From Candidatus Kaiserbacteria bacterium (GTDB taxonomy: Bacteria > Patescibacteriota > Minisyncoccia > Phycocordibacterales > UBA2100): a DNA stretch of 32,283 nt. The position numbers and the translations under genes were made by a program. The DNA is taken from the NCBI GenBank assembly GCA_016186695.1, contig JACPLC010000001.1, positions 1-32,283 on the forward strand, read 5' to 3'. How positions within the stretch are numbered: position 1 is the stretch's first letter; each line of letters starts with the position of its first letter. This document shows, piece after piece, positions 1 to 9,292 of the stretch. The notes beneath the pieces are model-generated. The model had not been told where the DNA came from. It worked only from the letters and a program-made list of their open reading frames with translations, and did no database searches.

Positions 1-16
1 CTAATTCAAGTATTCT

Positions 17-117
17 GCACCAAAACGGAAAGCGCAAGTCAGCGCTCGCCGCCTCGCGTAGCTCGGCGGCTCGCGCGACCAGCGTTTTCGGGCTGAATTC
101 GAATGTGCGATTTCGCA
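17..117. repeat. Left copy of a perfect 101-bp inverted repeat
   Basis: This segment is the exact reverse complement of 1546-1646. Identity stops at both ends of the pair: bases 1-16 do not continue the match to the tRNA side, and bases after 117 do not match those before 1546. The outer end begins GCACCA, the same six bases that end tRNA-Gly in the other copy. The two copies enclose almost the whole serine recombinase gene. The first 16 bases of the window hold nothing I can identify. The stretch from 118 to 176 is the short upstream region of the recombinase gene. Confidence 0.95.
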
Positions 118-176
118 TTCGGGAAAAAAGAATTTTTGGCCTTTCAATTATGCATTTACTCGCTAACCACTAACGT

Positions 177-1703
177 ATGAGATACGTAATCTACGCACGG
201 AAATCAACAGAGGACGAAGACCGTCAAATCCTAAGCATTCAAGCTCAGCTTGCTGAGCTGCATTCGTATTCCGCCAAAGAAAAATTTGATATTGTCGCTT
301 CCTTTCAGGAAGCGAAAACCGCCAAGGAGCCCGGGCGAACTGTGTTCGCAGAAATGCTGTCATTCATTGAGTGTGGGAAAGCAGATGGGATTATCTCGTG
401 GCACCCCGACAGATTGGCTCGCAACTCAGTAGACGGAGGCAAGATAATCCACCTAGTGGATCGTGGCTTGATTCGTTCCCTCAAATTTCCGACCTTCTGG
501 TTCGAACCGACGCCACAGGGTTTGTTCATGCTCAATATCGCCTTTGGGCAATCAAAATATTTTGTAGACAATTTGCGAGAGAACGTGAAGCGCGGACTAC
601 GACAGAAAATCAGAAATGGCGTGTGGCCAGGACGCGCGCCGGTGGGGTACGTGAACAACGCGAAGACGAGAGGAATTGACGTAGACAAAGAAAAGGCCGC
701 GAGGGTAAGAAAACTCTTCGAACTGTACGCCACCGGAGAACATACGCTGTATTCTCTCGCAAATTGGTGCAAGGAGCACAATCTACGCGGACACGGTAAC
801 AAACTGCTACGCGTCGGCAATATACAGAAAAATCTACAAAATATTTTCTACATCGGACTCATGAAATGGAAGGAGGAAATTTTTGAGGGAATCCACGAGC
901 CGATTCTGACAAAGAAACTTTTTGACAAGGTGCAGGAAGTCATGAAAAAGAAGGGTCGCACAAGACCCGACAAGAAACACATCTTCCCGTTGCGCGGACT
1001 ACTCAAATGCGCCTCGTGCGGCTGTGCAATCACCGCGCAGTACGCCAAAGGAAACGGTGGTATCTACCCCTACTACCGCTGCACCAAGAAACGAGGCGCA
1101 TGTACCGAACGCTACGTGAGCGAACAAAACCTCACAAACCAAATTCACAACTTCTTACAAAAAGTTTCTTTGTCTAGCCAAGACACGCAGAAAGTTTTGG
1201 CGGCGTTGGAGAGCGATGAACAAGAAGCAAAAGCAGAAGCGAGAACGGAGGCAGGGAATCTGAAAACGGAAATCCAAAAGCTAGACAACCGACTAGAAAA
1301 GTTGCTCAACCTCTATCTCGCCGACGCGCTATCCACAGCAGAGTACGCCGCCAAGAAAAACAAAATCATCTCCGAAAAGGCGACGCTGACCGAAAAAATT
1401 ACCGACATCGAGAAGCGCGGCGTGTCTTGGCTCGAACCAGCTCGTGAGTTCGTAAAGTCCTTGAACCAAGCCGCGAATCTGCTTTCCCGAAATGATTTGT
1501 CCGGAATGACAGCATTTCTGAAAAACATCGGCGCGAACCATTCTCTGCGAAATCGCACATTCGAATTCAGCCCGAAAACGCTGGTCGCGCGAGCCGCCGA
1601 GCTACGCGAGGCGGCGAGCGCTGACTTGCGCTTTCCGTTTTGGTGCGGGATGGGGGAATCGAACCCCCGACCACAGTTTGGAAAACTGTTATTTTGCCAT
1701 TAA
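177..1703 (+). CDS. Large serine recombinase (site-specific integrase/resolvase family)
   Basis: Serine recombinases cut and rejoin DNA at att-type sites through a serine nucleophile. The N-terminus reads YARKST with the catalytic serine at residue 10, followed by a resolvase fold to about residue 140. A recombinase domain follows (about 150-265). A zinc ribbon has cysteines at 278, 281, 302 and 309. A charged coiled-coil region lies at about 345-410. At 508 residues it fits the family. The start ATG has no clear Shine-Dalgarno site. The last 50 or so codons run through the right inverted repeat and then antisense through tRNA-Gly, ending in a stop inside the tRNA gene, so the residues GMGESNPRP near the C-terminus are an antisense-tRNA translation. 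The gene probably belongs to an element integrated at the tRNA 3' end. Its natural C-terminus may be shorter. Confidence 0.93.
   Translation: MRYVIYARKSTEDEDRQILSIQAQLAELHSYSAKEKFDIVASFQEAKTAKEPGRTVFAEMLSFIECGKADGIISWHPDRLARNSVDGGKIIHLVDRGLIRSLKFPTFWFEPTPQGLFMLNIAFGQSKYFVDNLRENVKRGLRQKIRNGVWPGRAPVGYVNNAKTRGIDVDKEKAARVRKLFELYATGEHTLYSLANWCKEHNLRGHGNKLLRVGNIQKNLQNIFYIGLMKWKEEIFEGIHEPILTKKLFDKVQEVMKKKGRTRPDKKHIFPLRGLLKCASCGCAITAQYAKGNGGIYPYYRCTKKRGACTERYVSEQNLTNQIHNFLQKVSLSSQDTQKVLAALESDEQEAKAEARTEAGNLKTEIQKLDNRLEKLLNLYLADALSTAEYAAKKNKIISEKATLTEKITDIEKRGVSWLEPAREFVKSLNQAANLLSRNDLSGMTAFLKNIGANHSLRNRTFEFSPKTLVARAAELREAASADLRFPFWCGMGESNPRPQFGKLLFCH
1546..1646. repeat. Right copy of the 101-bp inverted repeat, entering the tRNA-Gly 3' end
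   Basis: Exact reverse complement of 17-117. It begins within the recombinase coding sequence and ends two bases inside the tRNA acceptor stem, so it contains the encoded CCA and discriminator base. An endpoint at a tRNA 3' end is typical of integrase attachment sites, but those are normally direct repeats rather than inverted ones. Confidence 0.95.
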
Positions 1704-1714
1704 ACTAATCCCGC
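1641..1714 (-). tRNA. tRNA-Gly (anticodon TCC), CCA encoded
   Basis: On the minus strand a 7-bp acceptor stem (GCGGGAT with ATCCCGC) closes the gene. The anticodon stem ACAGT/ACTGT encloses loop TTTCCAA, giving anticodon TCC. The T arm is GGGGG-TTCGATT-CCCCC. The discriminator is A and CCA is encoded, for a total of 74 nt. The recombinase reading frame runs antisense through it, and the 101-bp repeat ends in its 3' end, which marks it as the probable integration site. Confidence 0.96.
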
Positions 1715-1797: not shown

Positions 1798-2073
1798 TTA
1801 CTTCAGTGCGTCCTTGAGCGTCTTTGATGCACGGAACTTCGGAACTTTCATCGCCTTAATCTGAATCGTTGCGCCTGTGCGGGGATTGCGGCCCATGCGG
1901 CCGGCGCGGGTCTTTGCCTCGAAGATGCCGAGGCCCGCGATTGAGACTTCCTCACCGCTCTTCAATTTGTTCGTAATCATGTCGATAATTGCCTCAACGG
2001 CGCGCTCGCCGTCGGCCTTCGTGCAGCCGATCGTTGAAGCCACTTTCTCGACCAAGTCCATTTTATTTGCCAT
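1798..2073 (-). CDS. hup: HU-family DNA-binding protein
   Basis: Small histone-like protein that bends and compacts the nucleoid as a dimer. The 91-residue length is standard. The N-terminal helices begin with a Lys-rich segment, followed by the GLGIFE strand region. The beta-arm carries RNPRTG at about residues 62-67, with the proline that intercalates into DNA. The C-terminus is basic (FRASKTLKDALK). The start ATG has no Shine-Dalgarno match on the sense strand; the upstream sequence is A/T rich. It is a single-gene unit closed by the terminator at 1751-1776. I cannot tell HU from IHF subtypes, but HU is the likelier reading in this lineage. Confidence 0.95.
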   Translation of the reverse strand: MANKMDLVEKVASTIGCTKADGERAVEAIIDMITNKLKSGEEVSIAGLGIFEAKTRAGRMGRNPRTGATIQIKAMKVPKFRASKTLKDALK

Positions 2074-2322: not shown

Positions 2323-3081
2323 TCATACTCCTTTCTCCCAAACGATCTTGAATATCTGCCGCATCGCGTCTGCGGTACTCGCGTTGTCTATTACGGTCGC
2401 TTGGCGATTCTTTTCATCGAGTATCCATAGAAAACCATCACCGATACCTATCGACGCGTTGGGCGGATATTCGTATTGGTCGAGAAGGCGCATCTGTACT
2501 CGATCATCCGTCTTTGAAATATCGATAAGTTGCTTGTTGTATGCCTCGGCTCCTTTTCTTGGCATGATGATTTGGAACGAAATATCCATATCGAGGGCTT
2601 TGGTGTTCCACTTCTCGTACATGCGGGCGATTTCATCCACGTTTTCGCAGTCAATCATGCTTCCATAGAAGCCGTAGAACATTTTTCCTCGCATCGAATC
2701 GAATTTGTATGCGAGCGCCTGTTCAATACCGCGGACTCCATTGAAGAAATACACGCTCGCACCTTTTTTTGCAGAGAGCGCATTGAATTTCGGGAGCAGA
2801 TCGCGAACCGTTCGTACCCTTGATTCTTGATCACGGATGTAGTCGGAGATCTCAACGGCTGAAAAAAGTGCCTTCTTTGCATGCGGGACCTTCAAGACAA
2901 GACCTTTCTTGCGCAGCTCTTCCAAAATCACGTATACCGTGGGTTTTTTGACCTCGCATTGCTCTGCGATTCGATAGGCGGTTGCACTTCCAAGAGAGAG
3001 AAGCGCTAAGTAAACTCTCGCTTCCTTTTCCGTAAGGCCTACTTGTTCAAGAGAGCCAACCAGCTCCTTCTTTTGCGCCAT
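2323..3081 (-). CDS. TrmB-family transcriptional regulator
   Basis: Predicted DNA-binding regulator of 252 residues. The first 75 or so form a TrmB-type winged helix: the segment GLTEKEARVYLALLSLG leads into a helix-turn-helix (AYRIAEQCEVKKPTVYVILEEL) and a wing ending near KALFSA. A helical linker at about 80-100 follows. The rest is the C-terminal effector/dimerisation region typical of short TrmB-like proteins in CPR bacteria and archaea. Known members sense sugars or other metabolites; this ligand cannot be read from sequence. The start is fixed by a promoter whose -10 box lies 6 nt upstream, so the mRNA is probably leaderless. It diverges from the orphan pair at 3239-3892, which it may regulate. 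Confidence 0.85.
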   Translation of the reverse strand: MAQKKELVGSLEQVGLTEKEARVYLALLSLGSATAYRIAEQCEVKKPTVYVILEELRKKGLVLKVPHAKKALFSAVEISDYIRDQESRVRTVRDLLPKFNALSAKKGASVYFFNGVRGIEQALAYKFDSMRGKMFYGFYGSMIDCENVDEIARMYEKWNTKALDMDISFQIIMPRKGAEAYNKQLIDISKTDDRVQMRLLDQYEYPPNASIGIGDGFLWILDEKNRQATVIDNASTADAMRQIFKIVWEKGV

Positions 3082-3087
3082 GCATGC

Positions 3088-3115
3088 ACCTTAGCCGATC
3101 CATCCTAAAAGTCAA
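3088..3115 (-). promoter_or_regulatory. Promoter of the TrmB-like gene, leaderless start
   Basis: On the minus strand: -35 TTGACT at 3115-3110, a 16-nt spacer, and -10 TAAGGT at 3093-3088. Only 6 nt separate the -10 box from the ATG. The octamer TGACTAAT occurs near here (about 3122) and again at about 3183, so it may be an operator shared with the divergent genes. Confidence 0.6.
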
Positions 3116-3238
3116 TATTTCTGACTAATACTTTAACCGGCTCTTAATAAAGCAAATTATGTTGCTTGATTGAATATATATTTTGACTAATTAGGATCGA
3201 CATGGGCTCATTGCAAATCGGAAAGAGAGGTGAGACAA

Positions 3239-3436
3239 GTGCCCAAAGGATACAACGATCGTGCCATCAAAGGACTCCTCGAATATACGAAAGGCGTTAT
3301 GGAGTGCGTACTCCAAGACGTCAAAGAAGGAAAGCCGCTCGAGCAAGCTCTCAAAGAAGAGCTTCAGGAGATCGAATCGCGCCTCAAGGGCGACTACCGG
3401 GAGACGACGACGAGTTTCGAGAAGGTCGTCGGGTAG
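3239..3436 (+). CDS. Orphan small protein (65 aa)
   Basis: I do not recognise this gene. The start is taken as GTG at 3239 because a purine-rich AGAGAGG Shine-Dalgarno site ends 8 nt upstream; an in-frame GTG at 3230 overlaps that site and is less likely. The product is a charged, probably helical soluble protein with no signal peptide or membrane segment (KEGKPLEQALKEELQEIE in the middle). A strong hairpin follows the stop, then a second orphan gene with its own Shine-Dalgarno site. The strong ribosome site contrasts with the leaderless core genes nearby. Confidence 0.6.
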   Translation: MPKGYNDRAIKGLLEYTKGVMECVLQDVKEGKPLEQALKEELQEIESRLKGDYRETTTSFEKVVG

Positions 3437-3442
3437 CAACTA

Positions 3443-3468
3443 CGGAGAAGCGTTAAAACGCTTCTCCG
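3443..3468 (+). terminator. Hairpin between two orphan genes
   Basis: CGGAGAAGCG pairs perfectly with CGCTTCTCCG across a 6-nt loop, 6 nt after the orphan stop codon. No T-run follows, so it may stabilise the mRNA 3' end or act as a processing site rather than as a classic terminator. Confidence 0.55.
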
Positions 3469-3517
3469 CTTACTAACCGCAAGGCAACGGAGCGAATGGA
3501 GGAAAGGAAAAGATCAG

Positions 3518-3892
3518 ATGACTGAAAACAATCAAGTCGTTGTCAGCGTTCTAGAGGTTCTCGATGAAGTCGGGCTCAACCACTCCTGCACAATGGGCAA
3601 AATGCGCAAGATGGTGATCGTGGAGGGAGGTCTTAGCGACCCCATGAAAGCCTTCCGCGTCTCTACCTTTCGTGATGCCATCTCGGATGACGAAGGGTTC
3701 ATCAACGACCACATCGTTCAGCAGAACATGCTTCGGGCTAGGCGAGCTTTGCTCGCTTATGTCGCGGATGTTCTCCAAAAGAAGGGAGCCATTCTCAAGA
3801 GTAAGAACGACCCCCACGGTCTTACGGTGGATGAAACGTACCACTTCATCATCGAAGGTCAGGAAATCTACCTTGCGCTCATGCCCCGTTGA
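3518..3892 (+). CDS. Orphan protein (124 aa)
   Basis: No family recognised. The start ATG follows a strong purine tract (GGAGGAAAGGAAAAG) that serves as ribosome-binding site. The product has 124 residues, a mixed alpha/beta look and no membrane segment. The middle (RARRALLAYVADVLQKKG) is probably one amphipathic helix. It lies in the same direction as the 65-aa orphan and ends before a strong terminator. The pair looks like a small accessory unit between a TrmB-type regulator and RNase Y. The 115 bases after the stop hold no convincing gene. Confidence 0.65.
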   Translation: MTENNQVVVSVLEVLDEVGLNHSCTMGKMRKMVIVEGGLSDPMKAFRVSTFRDAISDDEGFINDHIVQQNMLRARRALLAYVADVLQKKGAILKSKNDPHGLTVDETYHFIIEGQEIYLALMPR

Positions 3893-4007
3893 ATCGGGCG
3901 CGCGATGTTCGGGATGGAGGAATCTATCTTGCGATCGGATCCGCACTTGTGGACGGTGTGATTGGAAGAGTGGGCCTGTTCCTTGAGGAATAATTCCCCA
4001 AATTTTA

Positions 4008-4037
4008 AACGGCCTCCAGGTTGGAGGCCGTTATTTT
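4008..4037 (+). terminator. Intrinsic terminator, usable in both directions
   Basis: AACGGCCTCCA and TGGAGGCCGTT form an 11-bp stem with a 3-nt loop followed by ATTTTT. It closes the orphan unit on the plus strand and lies 8 bases past the end of the convergent RNase Y gene, so it can serve both. Confidence 0.88.
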
Positions 4038-4044
4038 TATATTT

Positions 4045-5574
4045 TTATCTCGCGTATTCGATGACGCGGGTTTCGCGGATGACGGAGACTTTGATCTCGC
4101 CGGGGTACTGGAGTTCTTTTTCGATCTTGTCGGCGATATCACGGGCGAGTTTTCGAGCGTCGAGGTCGGTAATATCTTCAGGCTTCACGATGACACGTAC
4201 CTCGCGGCCGGCGGCGATGGCATAACTTTTCTCCACACCCGGCTGCCCGTTTGCGATCGCCTCAAGCTCTTCAAGCCGCTTGATGTAATTCTCCACCGAA
4301 TCACGTCGCGCGCCCGGCCGCCCGCCTGAAATGGCATCGGCTACCTGCACGATCATGCTCTCCGGTGTTTCGTACGGGTACTCTTCGTGGTGCGCCTGCA
4401 TGGCTTTTACCACTGCTTCCTCGACGCCGAATTTTTGGAGAATCCGGCGGCCGATCTCGACGTGCGTTCCCGGCACCTCGTGGTCGACGGCCTTGCCGAT
4501 GTCGTGGAAGAGCGCTCCGGCGCGAGCGGTTGCCTCGTTGGCACCGAGCTCGGAGGCGAGCATTCCCGCGAGGTGGGCGACTTCGACCGAGTGGTCGAGG
4601 ACATTTTGGCCGTAGCTTGTGCGGAAGTAGAGACGGCCGAGAATCATGAGAAGTTTCGGGTCGAGATTTTGCACTTTCGCGTTGTAGGCGGCTTCGGCGC
4701 CCTTCTTTTTAATGATGGTATTTATCTCTTCTTCGGCTTTCTTCACCATCTCCTCGATCTTCGCAGGCTGGATGCGGCCGTCGAGAATAAGATTCTCCAG
4801 AGCGATACGGGCGACCTGCCGGCGAATAGGATCAAAGGATGAAAGCGTGATGGTGCCCGGCGTGTCGTCGATAATCACATCGACGCCGGTCGCGCGCTCG
4901 AAGGCGCGGATGTTGCGACCCTCCTTGCCGATGATCTTGCCCTTGATCTCGTCGGAGGGAAGGGAAATAGTCGTTGCCAAAACGTCGGAAACGACGGAAT
5001 TGCCGAGCCGGTGCACGGCCGTCGTAAGTATTTCTTTTGCACGCTGTTCGAGGCGCTCATTTCCTGAAATTTCGAGCTTGCGCATGCGGCTCTCGATATC
5101 CGATTCGGACTGCTTTTCGACCGACGTGATCAGGTCGGCCTTTGCCTCTTCGGCAGAGAGGTGCGCGACCTTCTCGAGCCTCTCCAGCTCTGCGCGCGTG
5201 AGTTCCTCAAGTTTCTCCTTCGCGTTAGAAAGCTCTTCACTGCGCTTCGTCAGCGTTTCCTGCTCGGTGTCGAGCATGCCCTGCCGCTTGTCGAGCAACT
5301 CTTCCTTGCGTACGAGGCGCTCTTCGGTCGCTTTGAGCTCGCTCCCACGCTGCTTCAGCTCCCCCGTGATCTGCCCCTCCTTTTCTTTGGCGCGTGCTTC
5401 AGCCTCTTCGACAATGCGCTTCGAGCGCTCCTCCGCATCGAGGCGCATTTTGCGGATCTCGAGCTCCATCGAGCCTCGTTTACCCAGTGAGATGATCAAC
5501 CGGAGAAAATAGCCGATCCCAATGCCGGCCATCCCCGCAAGCGCGAGGAGCAAGAGAATTGTTTGTATTGACAT
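4045..5574 (-). CDS. rny: Ribonuclease Y
   Basis: Membrane-anchored endoribonuclease that starts mRNA decay in bacteria without RNase E. The 509-residue protein has all expected parts. A single N-terminal transmembrane helix lies at about residues 4-28. A long coiled coil (about 35-190) follows. A KH domain carries IIGKEGRNI and the FERATGVDVIIDD segment. The HD domain has the HSVEVAHL helix and the metal-binding FHDIGK motif. The C-terminus (EIKVSVIRETRVIEYA) is typical of the family. The gene lies 14 nt behind the GIY-YIG gene, probably on the same transcript, and its ATG lies within the outer edge of the GIY-YIG element. An RNase acting on structured messages is a notable cell partner for the hairpin-rich genes at 10.5-12.7 kb, but no link is shown. 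Confidence 0.97.
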   Translation of the reverse strand: MSIQTILLLLALAGMAGIGIGYFLRLIISLGKRGSMELEIRKMRLDAEERSKRIVEEAEARAKEKEGQITGELKQRGSELKATEERLVRKEELLDKRQGMLDTEQETLTKRSEELSNAKEKLEELTRAELERLEKVAHLSAEEAKADLITSVEKQSESDIESRMRKLEISGNERLEQRAKEILTTAVHRLGNSVVSDVLATTISLPSDEIKGKIIGKEGRNIRAFERATGVDVIIDDTPGTITLSSFDPIRRQVARIALENLILDGRIQPAKIEEMVKKAEEEINTIIKKKGAEAAYNAKVQNLDPKLLMILGRLYFRTSYGQNVLDHSVEVAHLAGMLASELGANEATARAGALFHDIGKAVDHEVPGTHVEIGRRILQKFGVEEAVVKAMQAHHEEYPYETPESMIVQVADAISGGRPGARRDSVENYIKRLEELEAIANGQPGVEKSYAIAAGREVRVIVKPEDITDLDARKLARDIADKIEKELQYPGEIKVSVIRETRVIEYAR

Positions 5575-6766: not shown

Positions 6767-9292
6767 ATGCTTGAGGGTCCCCTCGATAAGCGCGAGCCAG
6801 TTTTTAAACACGATGAATCTCTTGCGCGCGAAGATACTTCAGCCAGAGAGGACGAGACATTTTCTCGGGCGCTCAATCGATGGTCGGCGAAACCAAGCAT
6901 CAAGGCAAAGCAAGAGCAGATCGACCGTACCGAAACTTTTCGCGGTAGCCTCGAAAAATTGGTACACGAGCGGAATGTCATGTCGACCATTAAGAATCCG
7001 GCGACCGGAGACGAAATGAATGTGCTCGATGAGCAGGCGCTACGCAAGGCTATCGACGCATCATTCGCAAAGGCGCGATCCTGGGGCGATAGGCTTCCCA
7101 AGGACGAACTGATAGCCGCTTTGTCTATAATACTAGGTGATAGACCGGTTCTTACGCGAGAGCAGGTGGTGCGGGGTGATTGGCAACCAAAATCCTTTTT
7201 TTATATTCCAGAATCTTCTAGTGCGGCGGTCGACATAACCGCAATTAAGAGCAGTCCGCCGTTCCATCACTTCGCTACGGATCTTGTCCTTCACGGTGAT
7301 CAGTTCGAGTACCCCTTTAGAGAACGCGGTGGTGATTCCGTAACCTCTCTTGAGACTCGAACAGCCGCACTCATATTCCACCCACAGTATGGAGACGGAT
7401 TCCGGAACGAAAAAGGCCAGCTGATGGTTCGCGATCTTGATACTCGAGACTACGTGCAGTTTTCAGGCGGTTTTCTTCGAGAGCACGGCATTGGGTACAA
7501 GAAATTTGGTCACCAATATGGGACGGCATCAGGGAAGAAAGGATTGTGGGGCAGGGCGGGCTCCGTAGAAATACGGAGTGTGCGAGAGGGTGTAACCGCC
7601 GGACTCCCGAATTTAGTGCGGAAGGGTCTGATTCGCCCTGTCGAGGATTTCAAACAAATGACATATGGCAGAGTGCATGTCGACGATCAGCGAGTAGAGC
7701 GTGCGGGCGTATCGTCCGCCGGCTCACGTCATATCCGGGGAGTGATTCATTACATTGGCAAAGAGTTCATCGGGAAAGACGTTCGCATTGTTGATATTTC
7801 CCCAACGTTGGGGGCTGTGATTGAAACGTCGGGAGGCGGTGAACGAGTTACGCACACGTTCAATATCATTTCTCGGGATCAAGCAAAGTCCGGTAAGAGC
7901 AACATGTGGCTTGCAGGAGCCCCACTCACACAAACTCGACCGTTCTCTGCAGAGGCAGTTGCACTGCCGCGCCGTACAGATGAATCTCTCGAACAGTATC
8001 ACGACCGGACTGAAAAAACTGATCGTGGACTTGCGCACCTACTTTTACACGTTATCCCGAAATACCCAGCATTGTCCAAAATGCTCCGGGACAAGCCAAC
8101 CTATGAACTAGCGTCGATTGCACAAGCCGCATATTTACTCGAGCGCGACAAACAAGCGCGGCATTTCGACGAATTTGTAAAAGCGCACGGAGAGCTCGGC
8201 ATTCGAACATTTCTTGTGACTGGAAATAACGATGAACTCCGCGAAAAGGTATTTGAATTCTCGCGTTCATCCTCGTCGGAGCACGTGCAAAAGGTGTTTC
8301 AAGCCTATGGCCAGCTCATAGATTCGGTCGACAACCTTCATGTGTATCTGTCAGAGCAGTTCGGAGATGCAAACAAGGAAGCAGTCAATGAGATTGCGAC
8401 AAGAAGGCTCAAGGTTGCCGAGCGCCTACTCGCCGCAGCATATGAGAACAAAGATGATACCGCGAAACTCGACGAACTTTCACGAGCTGCAGAGGCCAAT
8501 AATATCCTCATTACGGCAAGCCGTGTTCTCAAAGAACGGGGAGAGCTCGACCTTGCTCTTATGCGTGATGCCGAGATTCTTTCTGTTCGCGGTGGCGACA
8601 TATCTCCTCAAGACGCAGAAGCCGTGAAGGCGCTGCAATATCAGAGATACGGCGACGGCAAGGTTCGCGCCGACGAAGGCTATACTCTCGATACCGTGGA
8701 AGGCGCAATGGCCGGTCTTGAGAAGGCGCTCGAACAAAAGACTTCTCGCTTCCATCTGTTCAGACTAGACGGGAAGGTCGTCGCATGCGTGCGTTTTGAT
8801 CAACAAGACGAAGCTGGTCAGCACACAGAAAATCCAACACGACTTTACATGGCAACGGTCATGGGAGATAAAGCGATTGCCGGAGGCAAACTTGCCGAAG
8901 CGAATGCCGAAGCTGCCTTCCGTCAGGAACAAAAACAAGGACTGCCTATTTGTGCGACGGCAAAGCCCGAGTTGCAGATCGCGGAGAAGTATCTCGAGTG
9001 GGGATTTGTTGCCCGTTCGGCCTCCATGTACAAGAATCTCCCCATCCTCAATATCGAATGGGATCCGCGATCGGCCATCGACGACTCTTCGACTGAAGCA
9101 TATGTGTTTCCCTCCCACTTCGACGGCAAAGGCATGCTCGCGCGGCCAAGCCGCAAAGACCACGAGACTGCGTTCGCGCTGCATGCTGACAAGGTGCTGA
9201 CCCGACTCTATTACGATGAACAGCAGCAGCGGTACTGCGGAGTCTACGCCCGTGGCGCGCGCGCAGAAGTCTCTGAACGAGCGGCCGCGTGA
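6767..9292 (+). CDS. Large orphan protein with possible GNAT-like C-terminus (841 aa)
   Basis: I do not recognise this family as a whole. The first 110 residues are highly charged and probably partly disordered. Residues at about 190-400 look like a globular beta-rich region rich in HxxG and basic motifs. The middle (about 420-620) is helical. The stretch from about 655 to 770 resembles an acetyltransferase core of the GNAT type: a beta strand pair with KVVACVRF, a strand with [10 protein letters not shown], a helix, and a late FGFV-like segment ([12 protein letters not shown] style). No signal peptide or membrane helix is seen, so it is likely cytoplasmic. It diverges from clpP with overlapping promoters, and its 3' end overlaps the convergent TrmB-like gene by 49 bp. 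The GNAT assignment is weak. Confidence 0.8.

Follow-up and report, generated by a model that had tools for sequence, protein, structure and literature searches.

A serine recombinase between inverted arms at a tRNA-Gly gene: the probable tRNA-proximal end of a small Patescibacteria integrative element with a second, inverted attP

At the start of one contig of a Candidatus Kaiserbacteria genome, a serine recombinase gene is enclosed by two inverted arms, one of which runs into a tRNA-Gly gene. What kind of element has this shape, and why does the recombinase lie between inverted arms? We analyzed a stretch of 32,283 nucleotides (the window; GenBank assembly GCA_016186695.1, contig JACPLC010000001.1) together with its relatives. 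The two arms, 17–117 and 1546–1646, are reverse complements at 101 of 101 bp, just as a first-pass annotation of the window had described, and an exact inverted match of this length in 32 kb far exceeds chance expectation. The same annotation held that the identity stops outside the arms; indeed, only when 2 mismatches are allowed does the match grow, to 106 bp (12–117 and 1546–1651). It also placed the arm end at the tRNA 3′ GCACCA, in agreement with ARAGORN, whose tRNA-Gly(tcc) at 1641–1714 covers the outer 6 bp of the right arm (1641–1646). Base 1, which it had asked to be checked as a possible contig end, is base 1 of contig C8 (genome of 902 kb in 10 contigs); the contig therefore starts just 16 bp left of the left arm. 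The features of the locus are as follows.

1–16, minus strand: start of the attP half-site (P arm) of the adjoining cargo module, AGAATACTTGAATTAG when read outward; it resembles the P half-sites of relatives and is truncated by the contig end.
17–117, plus strand: left arm, an inverted copy of the P′ half (here called Z), which together with 1–16 begins the internal intact attP; it is the reverse complement of 1546–1646, and relatives have P-core-Z here.
118–176, plus strand: leader from the arm to the start of the recombinase; relatives conserve its A/T-rich beginning, which is found again before the cargo gene in a close subgroup.
177–1703, plus strand: large serine recombinase, assigned by its domains, with a nearly invariant catalytic Ser10.
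1546–1646, plus strand: right arm Z, assigned by the repeat match; recombinase C-terminal tail and element side of attL.
1641–1646, minus strand: core GCACCA (acceptor-stem end, discriminator and CCA), common to attL, the internal attP and attR (attR as seen in relatives).
1641–1714, minus strand: tRNA-Gly(tcc), the integration target (ARAGORN); its T-loop TCGAACC (1659–1665) is the attB-type binding motif according to the 5-bp rule described below.
1798–2073, minus strand: HU-family DNA-binding gene, chromosomal flank and marker for finding the same tRNA-Gly locus in relatives.

Between the HU gene and a TrmB-like gene, the window also contains a 21-bp inverted pair (90%; 2146–2166 and 2246–2266, 79 bp apart). 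We rejected it as a small repeat element; it is single-copy in the genome.

The ORF at 177–1703 encodes a large serine recombinase with Resolvase, Recombinase and Zn_ribbon_recom domains and the catalytic serine, the set expected of a serine integrase. The reading frame has no stop codon of its own; the right arm encodes the C-terminal tail, and the frame continues antisense into tRNA-Gly. The family is related by sequence to the A118 and Ccr recombinases, and its score stays below the Ccr cut-off (86.5 bits vs 900 for CcrB). An integron was rejected as well, as it needs the tyrosine integrase IntI and the window has serine recombinase domains.

Protein searches of 60 related genomes detected relatives of the recombinase in 40. 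The 3′ end of the recombinase mostly faces an opposite-strand tRNA gene, which varies from locus to locus; inverted arms particular to the locus, ∼70–173 bp in size, are present in about 17 of 27 loci. A scan of GTDB genomes gave 80 recombinase loci, most of them from genomes titled Patescibacteria; some records carry other phylum names and may be misbinned. Of the 50 GTDB loci that can be tested, 43 have arms around the recombinase, as do most genomes of the same order. Among the 63 loci whose arms reach 60 bp or more, the median arm length is 99 bp and the median identity is 98.9%, with 22 perfect pairs. The arm sequence is nearly perfect within a locus and differs between loci. Across 57 loci, 28 tRNA anticodon types are targeted. 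When treated in the same way, none of 13 unrelated serine recombinase loci (phages, plasmids, IMG/VR) showed inverted arms. This small mobile element of tRNA ends is common in Patescibacteria. Near the tRNA-Phe gene of one related genome, we also observed a recombinase C-terminal remnant (L053 8482–8701, G033) adjoining the tRNA; it is a degraded element, and the site is occupied in another genome (G009).

These comparisons bear on the simplest artefact, namely that the left arm is a chimera created by assembly or amplification where the contig ends. The contig does begin at base 1, and the contigs of relatives often stop at the same place, with a contig end within 500 bp upstream of the recombinase in 23 of the 80 GTDB loci (L116–L195), as a chimera would have it. 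However, the same layout with different arms is found inside long contigs (L039, L126, L193, L156 on a 685-kb contig), always at functional boundaries, and the chimera is refuted by these comparative data. The first-pass judgement that a fold-back chimera explains the arms poorly is strengthened, since dozens of independent assemblies share the layout with different arm sequences. We ascribe the frequent contig ends at these recombinases to the paired-arm element itself; paired arms seem to form a systematic assembly breakpoint in Patescibacteria.

What lies beyond the left arm can be seen in the larger loci. Directly beyond it, a second inverted-repeat pair encloses a cargo module and shares a few bases with the first pair (L038, L039, L042, L051 in the window's own genome, and L037). 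Of the 41 GTDB loci that could be tested, 29 have such an abutting second module; the remaining ones may have lost their far arm by decay, or it may be located outside the examined stretch. The arm identities of the two modules within a locus are moderately correlated (rho 0.44, p 0.011, n 33). Read outward, the junctions are tRNA-core-Z next to the tRNA, an inversely oriented P-core-Z in the middle and, at the far end, P-core-chromosome. Where the locus is cleanly delimited, the far core almost always equals the tRNA end in direct orientation, as for CCACC in L038, GCACCA in L118 and L126, CCGC in L142 and L147 and CAGC in L167. The attR of L038 continues into sequence resembling that found downstream of tRNA genes in the genus. 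The relatives thus behave as tRNA-targeted elements: attL and attR share their core in direct orientation, and the tRNA is preserved.

In serine integrases, the motif bound by the zinc domain lies 5 bp nearer the centre in attB than in attP (PMC3783163). On the tRNA side this motif is the T-loop (TCGAACC when read outward); the P arm has a conserved motif of CGAAC type. Measured from the shared boundary, the P-arm motif is exactly 5 bp more distant in 47 of 55 loci. This shift, characteristic of the half-sites of serine integrases, independently identifies the tRNA as the attB half-site and the left flank as the attP half-site. The shift is 1 in L119 and L122, where the right neighbour of the arm is a P arm and no tRNA. 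The P motif is present in the left flank of 51 of 57 loci; the remaining 6 are undecided, and plain chromosome was found in none. The Z arm carries no clear copy of a T-loop-like motif, and its half-site type is therefore assigned from its position and the subfamily consensus. As the junctions obey the rules of serine integrases, the integrated order is attL, recombinase, intact inverted attP, cargo and attR, and this three-site layout (attL, inverted intact attP, attR) is shown in the relatives. An insertion sequence with terminal inverted repeats was rejected: wherever its neighbour can be judged, the left arm adjoins an attP half-site and a second module instead of target DNA.

How far does the window itself agree? 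The first-pass annotation had proposed looking for a second tRNA left of the left arm. None is visible in the 16 bp present there; these bases are unlike a tRNA 3′ end, and the 40 bp at this position in relatives are a P half-site. The 16 bp match the P half-site of L008 (AGAATACTTGCAATAG) at 14–15 of 16 positions and also resemble the P half-sites of L118, L122 and L123 (AGTATTCTTGAATTAG). They differ by 1 base from an attR of the same genome (G000:C4:7449). The contig ends directly short of the expected CGAAC binding motif of the P arm, so that the window's own P motif would fall just off the contig. Of the element, the window thus holds attL, the recombinase and 16 bp at the beginning of an attP arm; attR and cargo are missing from it.

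Since the recombinase is enclosed by inverted arms, the segment between them could be a switch of the Hin type, flipped repeatedly by the recombinase, and the first-pass annotation had raised an invertible segment. Two loci (L157 and L158) do have the opposite orientation. However, in the GTDB loci the recombinase points toward the tRNA in 57 and away from it in only these 2, the largest cargo ORF is likewise biased, being directed away from the middle attP in 24 of 28, and the outer half-sites differ in type (tRNA attB vs attP). The orientation counts do not bear out a freely flipping segment, and we regard a switch as very unlikely.

We consider it probable that the window contains the tRNA-side end of a small integrative Patescibacteria element, with the integrated order attL, recombinase, inverted intact attP, cargo and attR, and that its circle carries two inverted attP sites. 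Perfect arms surround the recombinase because attL and the internal attP have the Z half in common, and a second arm pair surrounds the cargo because the internal attP and attR have the P half in common. The first-pass alternative of two copies integrated in opposite orientation was right about part of the structure: the attachment site is duplicated inversely, but the whole element is not. In the excised circle, two identical inverted attP copies would divide the DNA into a recombinase half and a cargo half. The recombinase would join one of the attP copies to the terminal base pairs of the tRNA gene and would read the conserved T-loop as its binding motif. The tRNA would stay whole, with the discriminator and CCA supplied by the integrated arm, and the second attP would survive integration. 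In element-free relatives, the same tRNA-Gly often has no encoded CCA (e.g. ...CCCGCAC|AAA); in the window the Z arm starts with the discriminator and CCA, and the element is thus able to provide both.

The two attP copies may be kept identical in the circle by gene conversion or by attP × attP exchange, and would decay once integrated. Near-perfect arms in many loci, weaker ones elsewhere and the moderate correlation between the modules fit such homogenisation before and decay after integration. Intramolecular attP × attP recombination is reported for A118 integrase and Ccr, and since the recombinase is related to both, exchange between the two copies is conceivable. If both copies were equally active, orientations of ∼1:1 would be expected; the observed 57:2 indicates that one copy is favoured or that the other product is lost. 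It is possible that the rare orientation is disfavoured as the tRNA promoter then reads into the recombinase. A likely benefit of the spare attP would be its freedom to drift to another core, and thereby to another tRNA target. No evident free circle was found in IMG/VR, where one candidate of 4.6 kb (L197) ends inside an arm and does not close.

The inverted attP copy could instead arise at or after integration, for instance when replication switches templates or restarts at the attachment site. The arms, nearly perfect within loci and different between them, and the correlated arm ages of the two modules would suit this. L157, however, does not. It is integrated at tRNA-Trp via the attP copy on the 5′ side of the recombinase, and its stretch 2564–4250 contains two attachment sites with different arms and different cores, one of the tRNA-Trp type at the insertion and CCGCCA at the recombinase 3′ end. 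Because the cores differ, both attP sites probably existed before integration. Copying at integration therefore seems improbable to us, if somewhat less so than the switch.

A further possibility is that the recombinase and the cargo are independent cassettes, circles that each have a palindromic attachment site and integrate successively at one tRNA. Each unit indeed has an inverted repeat of its own at its borders, and stacking occurs: in L119 (5706–6796) and at the right end of L122, one site holds two elements, of which the newer seems to have entered between the tRNA and its older neighbour. At tRNA-Val of the window's genome, there is also an element of ∼0.7 kb without recombinase (L085 771–1522; G000:C4 ∼7449–7464), bounded by GCACCA cores and by the same P end. 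But the ends of this small element are unequal, one Z-like and one P, the unit order is constant, and no recombinase unit stands clearly alone beside chromosome, given the counts of P motifs in the left flanks. We regard independent cassettes as unlikely, although they are the least unlikely of the alternatives considered here. The tRNA-Val element is likely a non-autonomous relative.

One group of observations is left unexplained by two inverted attP sites, namely exact 21–29 bp copies near the arms. In a close subgroup (L037, L044, L119, L122 and partly L157), the cargo module holds exact copies, 21–29 bp in size, of the sequences next to the arms on their recombinase side. These perfect inverted copies tie the ends of each module to the interior of the other (L037 7001–7077 and 6391–6417; L122 6691–6770 and 5803–5830; also L119 and L044). 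In L037 and L122, the start of the leader (118–176 in the window) recurs before the cargo gene as perfect copies of 28–29 bp, and the ends of the subgroup's cargo module match the N-terminal codons of the recombinase. This cargo module has the look of a recombinase unit that was gutted and circularly permuted.

Compared with known systems, the element shares domain order, attP × attB logic, the 5-bp motif shift and the position of the recombinase gene beside the att site with the large serine integrases of phages (A118, phiC31 and Bxb1 type). Different from these, which have one attP without an inverted copy, as in the control loci, a second intact attP stays inside. In the yeast 2-micron plasmid (Flp/FRT), the 3′ end of the recombinase gene lies in a repeat, as it does here. 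By inference, the element would also resemble this plasmid in being a circle that a pair of inverted repeats divides, with a recombination site in either repeat; two inverted repeats with recombination sites and two unique regions were found in integrated relatives only. Unlike the 2-micron plasmid, it has a serine rather than a tyrosine recombinase, integrates at tRNA genes, carries varied host genes as cargo and is known from its integrated form alone. The 599-bp inverted repeats of the 2-micron plasmid carry Flp sites, giving two isomers and double rolling circle replication (PMC3147054). As a possibility that we consider less likely than not, the element may be a bacterial counterpart of this plasmid, in which attP × attP recombination between the two inverted sites would flip or amplify the circle; it may hold two tRNA specificities, as in L157, with one copy free to evolve a new target.

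SCC elements with Ccr are also serine-recombinase cassettes with accessory genes and inverted repeats near their ends, their CcrA/B/C proteins are distantly similar to the recombinase, and attP × attP recombination is reported for Ccr. In contrast to SCC, the target here is a tRNA rather than rlmH, the scores fall far under the Ccr cut-offs, the paired arms are long and there are two modules. With tRNA-targeted islands and satellites, the element shares insertion at the tRNA 3′ end, direct core repeats at attL and attR and a preserved tRNA; it differs in being very small (cargo mostly 1–6 kb), in its internal inverted attP and in targeting nearly all tRNA isotypes. We searched the literature for serine recombinase elements of Patescibacteria or Parcubacteria, for large serine recombinases associated with terminal inverted repeats and for attP sites in pairs. 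Within the limited reach of this search, outside which most subscription papers and preprints lay, no description of a doubled inverted attP with two modules was found. The component parts are of known kinds, and the doubled inverted attP with two modules is apparently undescribed for serine integrases. It makes tRNA retargeting and attP × attP exchange testable, and the many natural pairs of recombinase and tRNA target could serve as DNA-integration tools.

The element would be a compact vehicle of gene transfer, apparently widespread in Patescibacteria, a group in which little is known about how genes are exchanged. Small cargo modules (∼1 kb) hold one gene, for example a methyltransferase (L129) or a short secreted or membrane-like protein. 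Larger ones encode a type IIG restriction enzyme (L159), DNA methyltransferases (L147, L170 and L179), a type III res-like protein (L160) or a DrmD-like helicase (L193). The restriction-modification and helicase cargo (L159, L160, L170, L179 and L193) is typical of phage defence.
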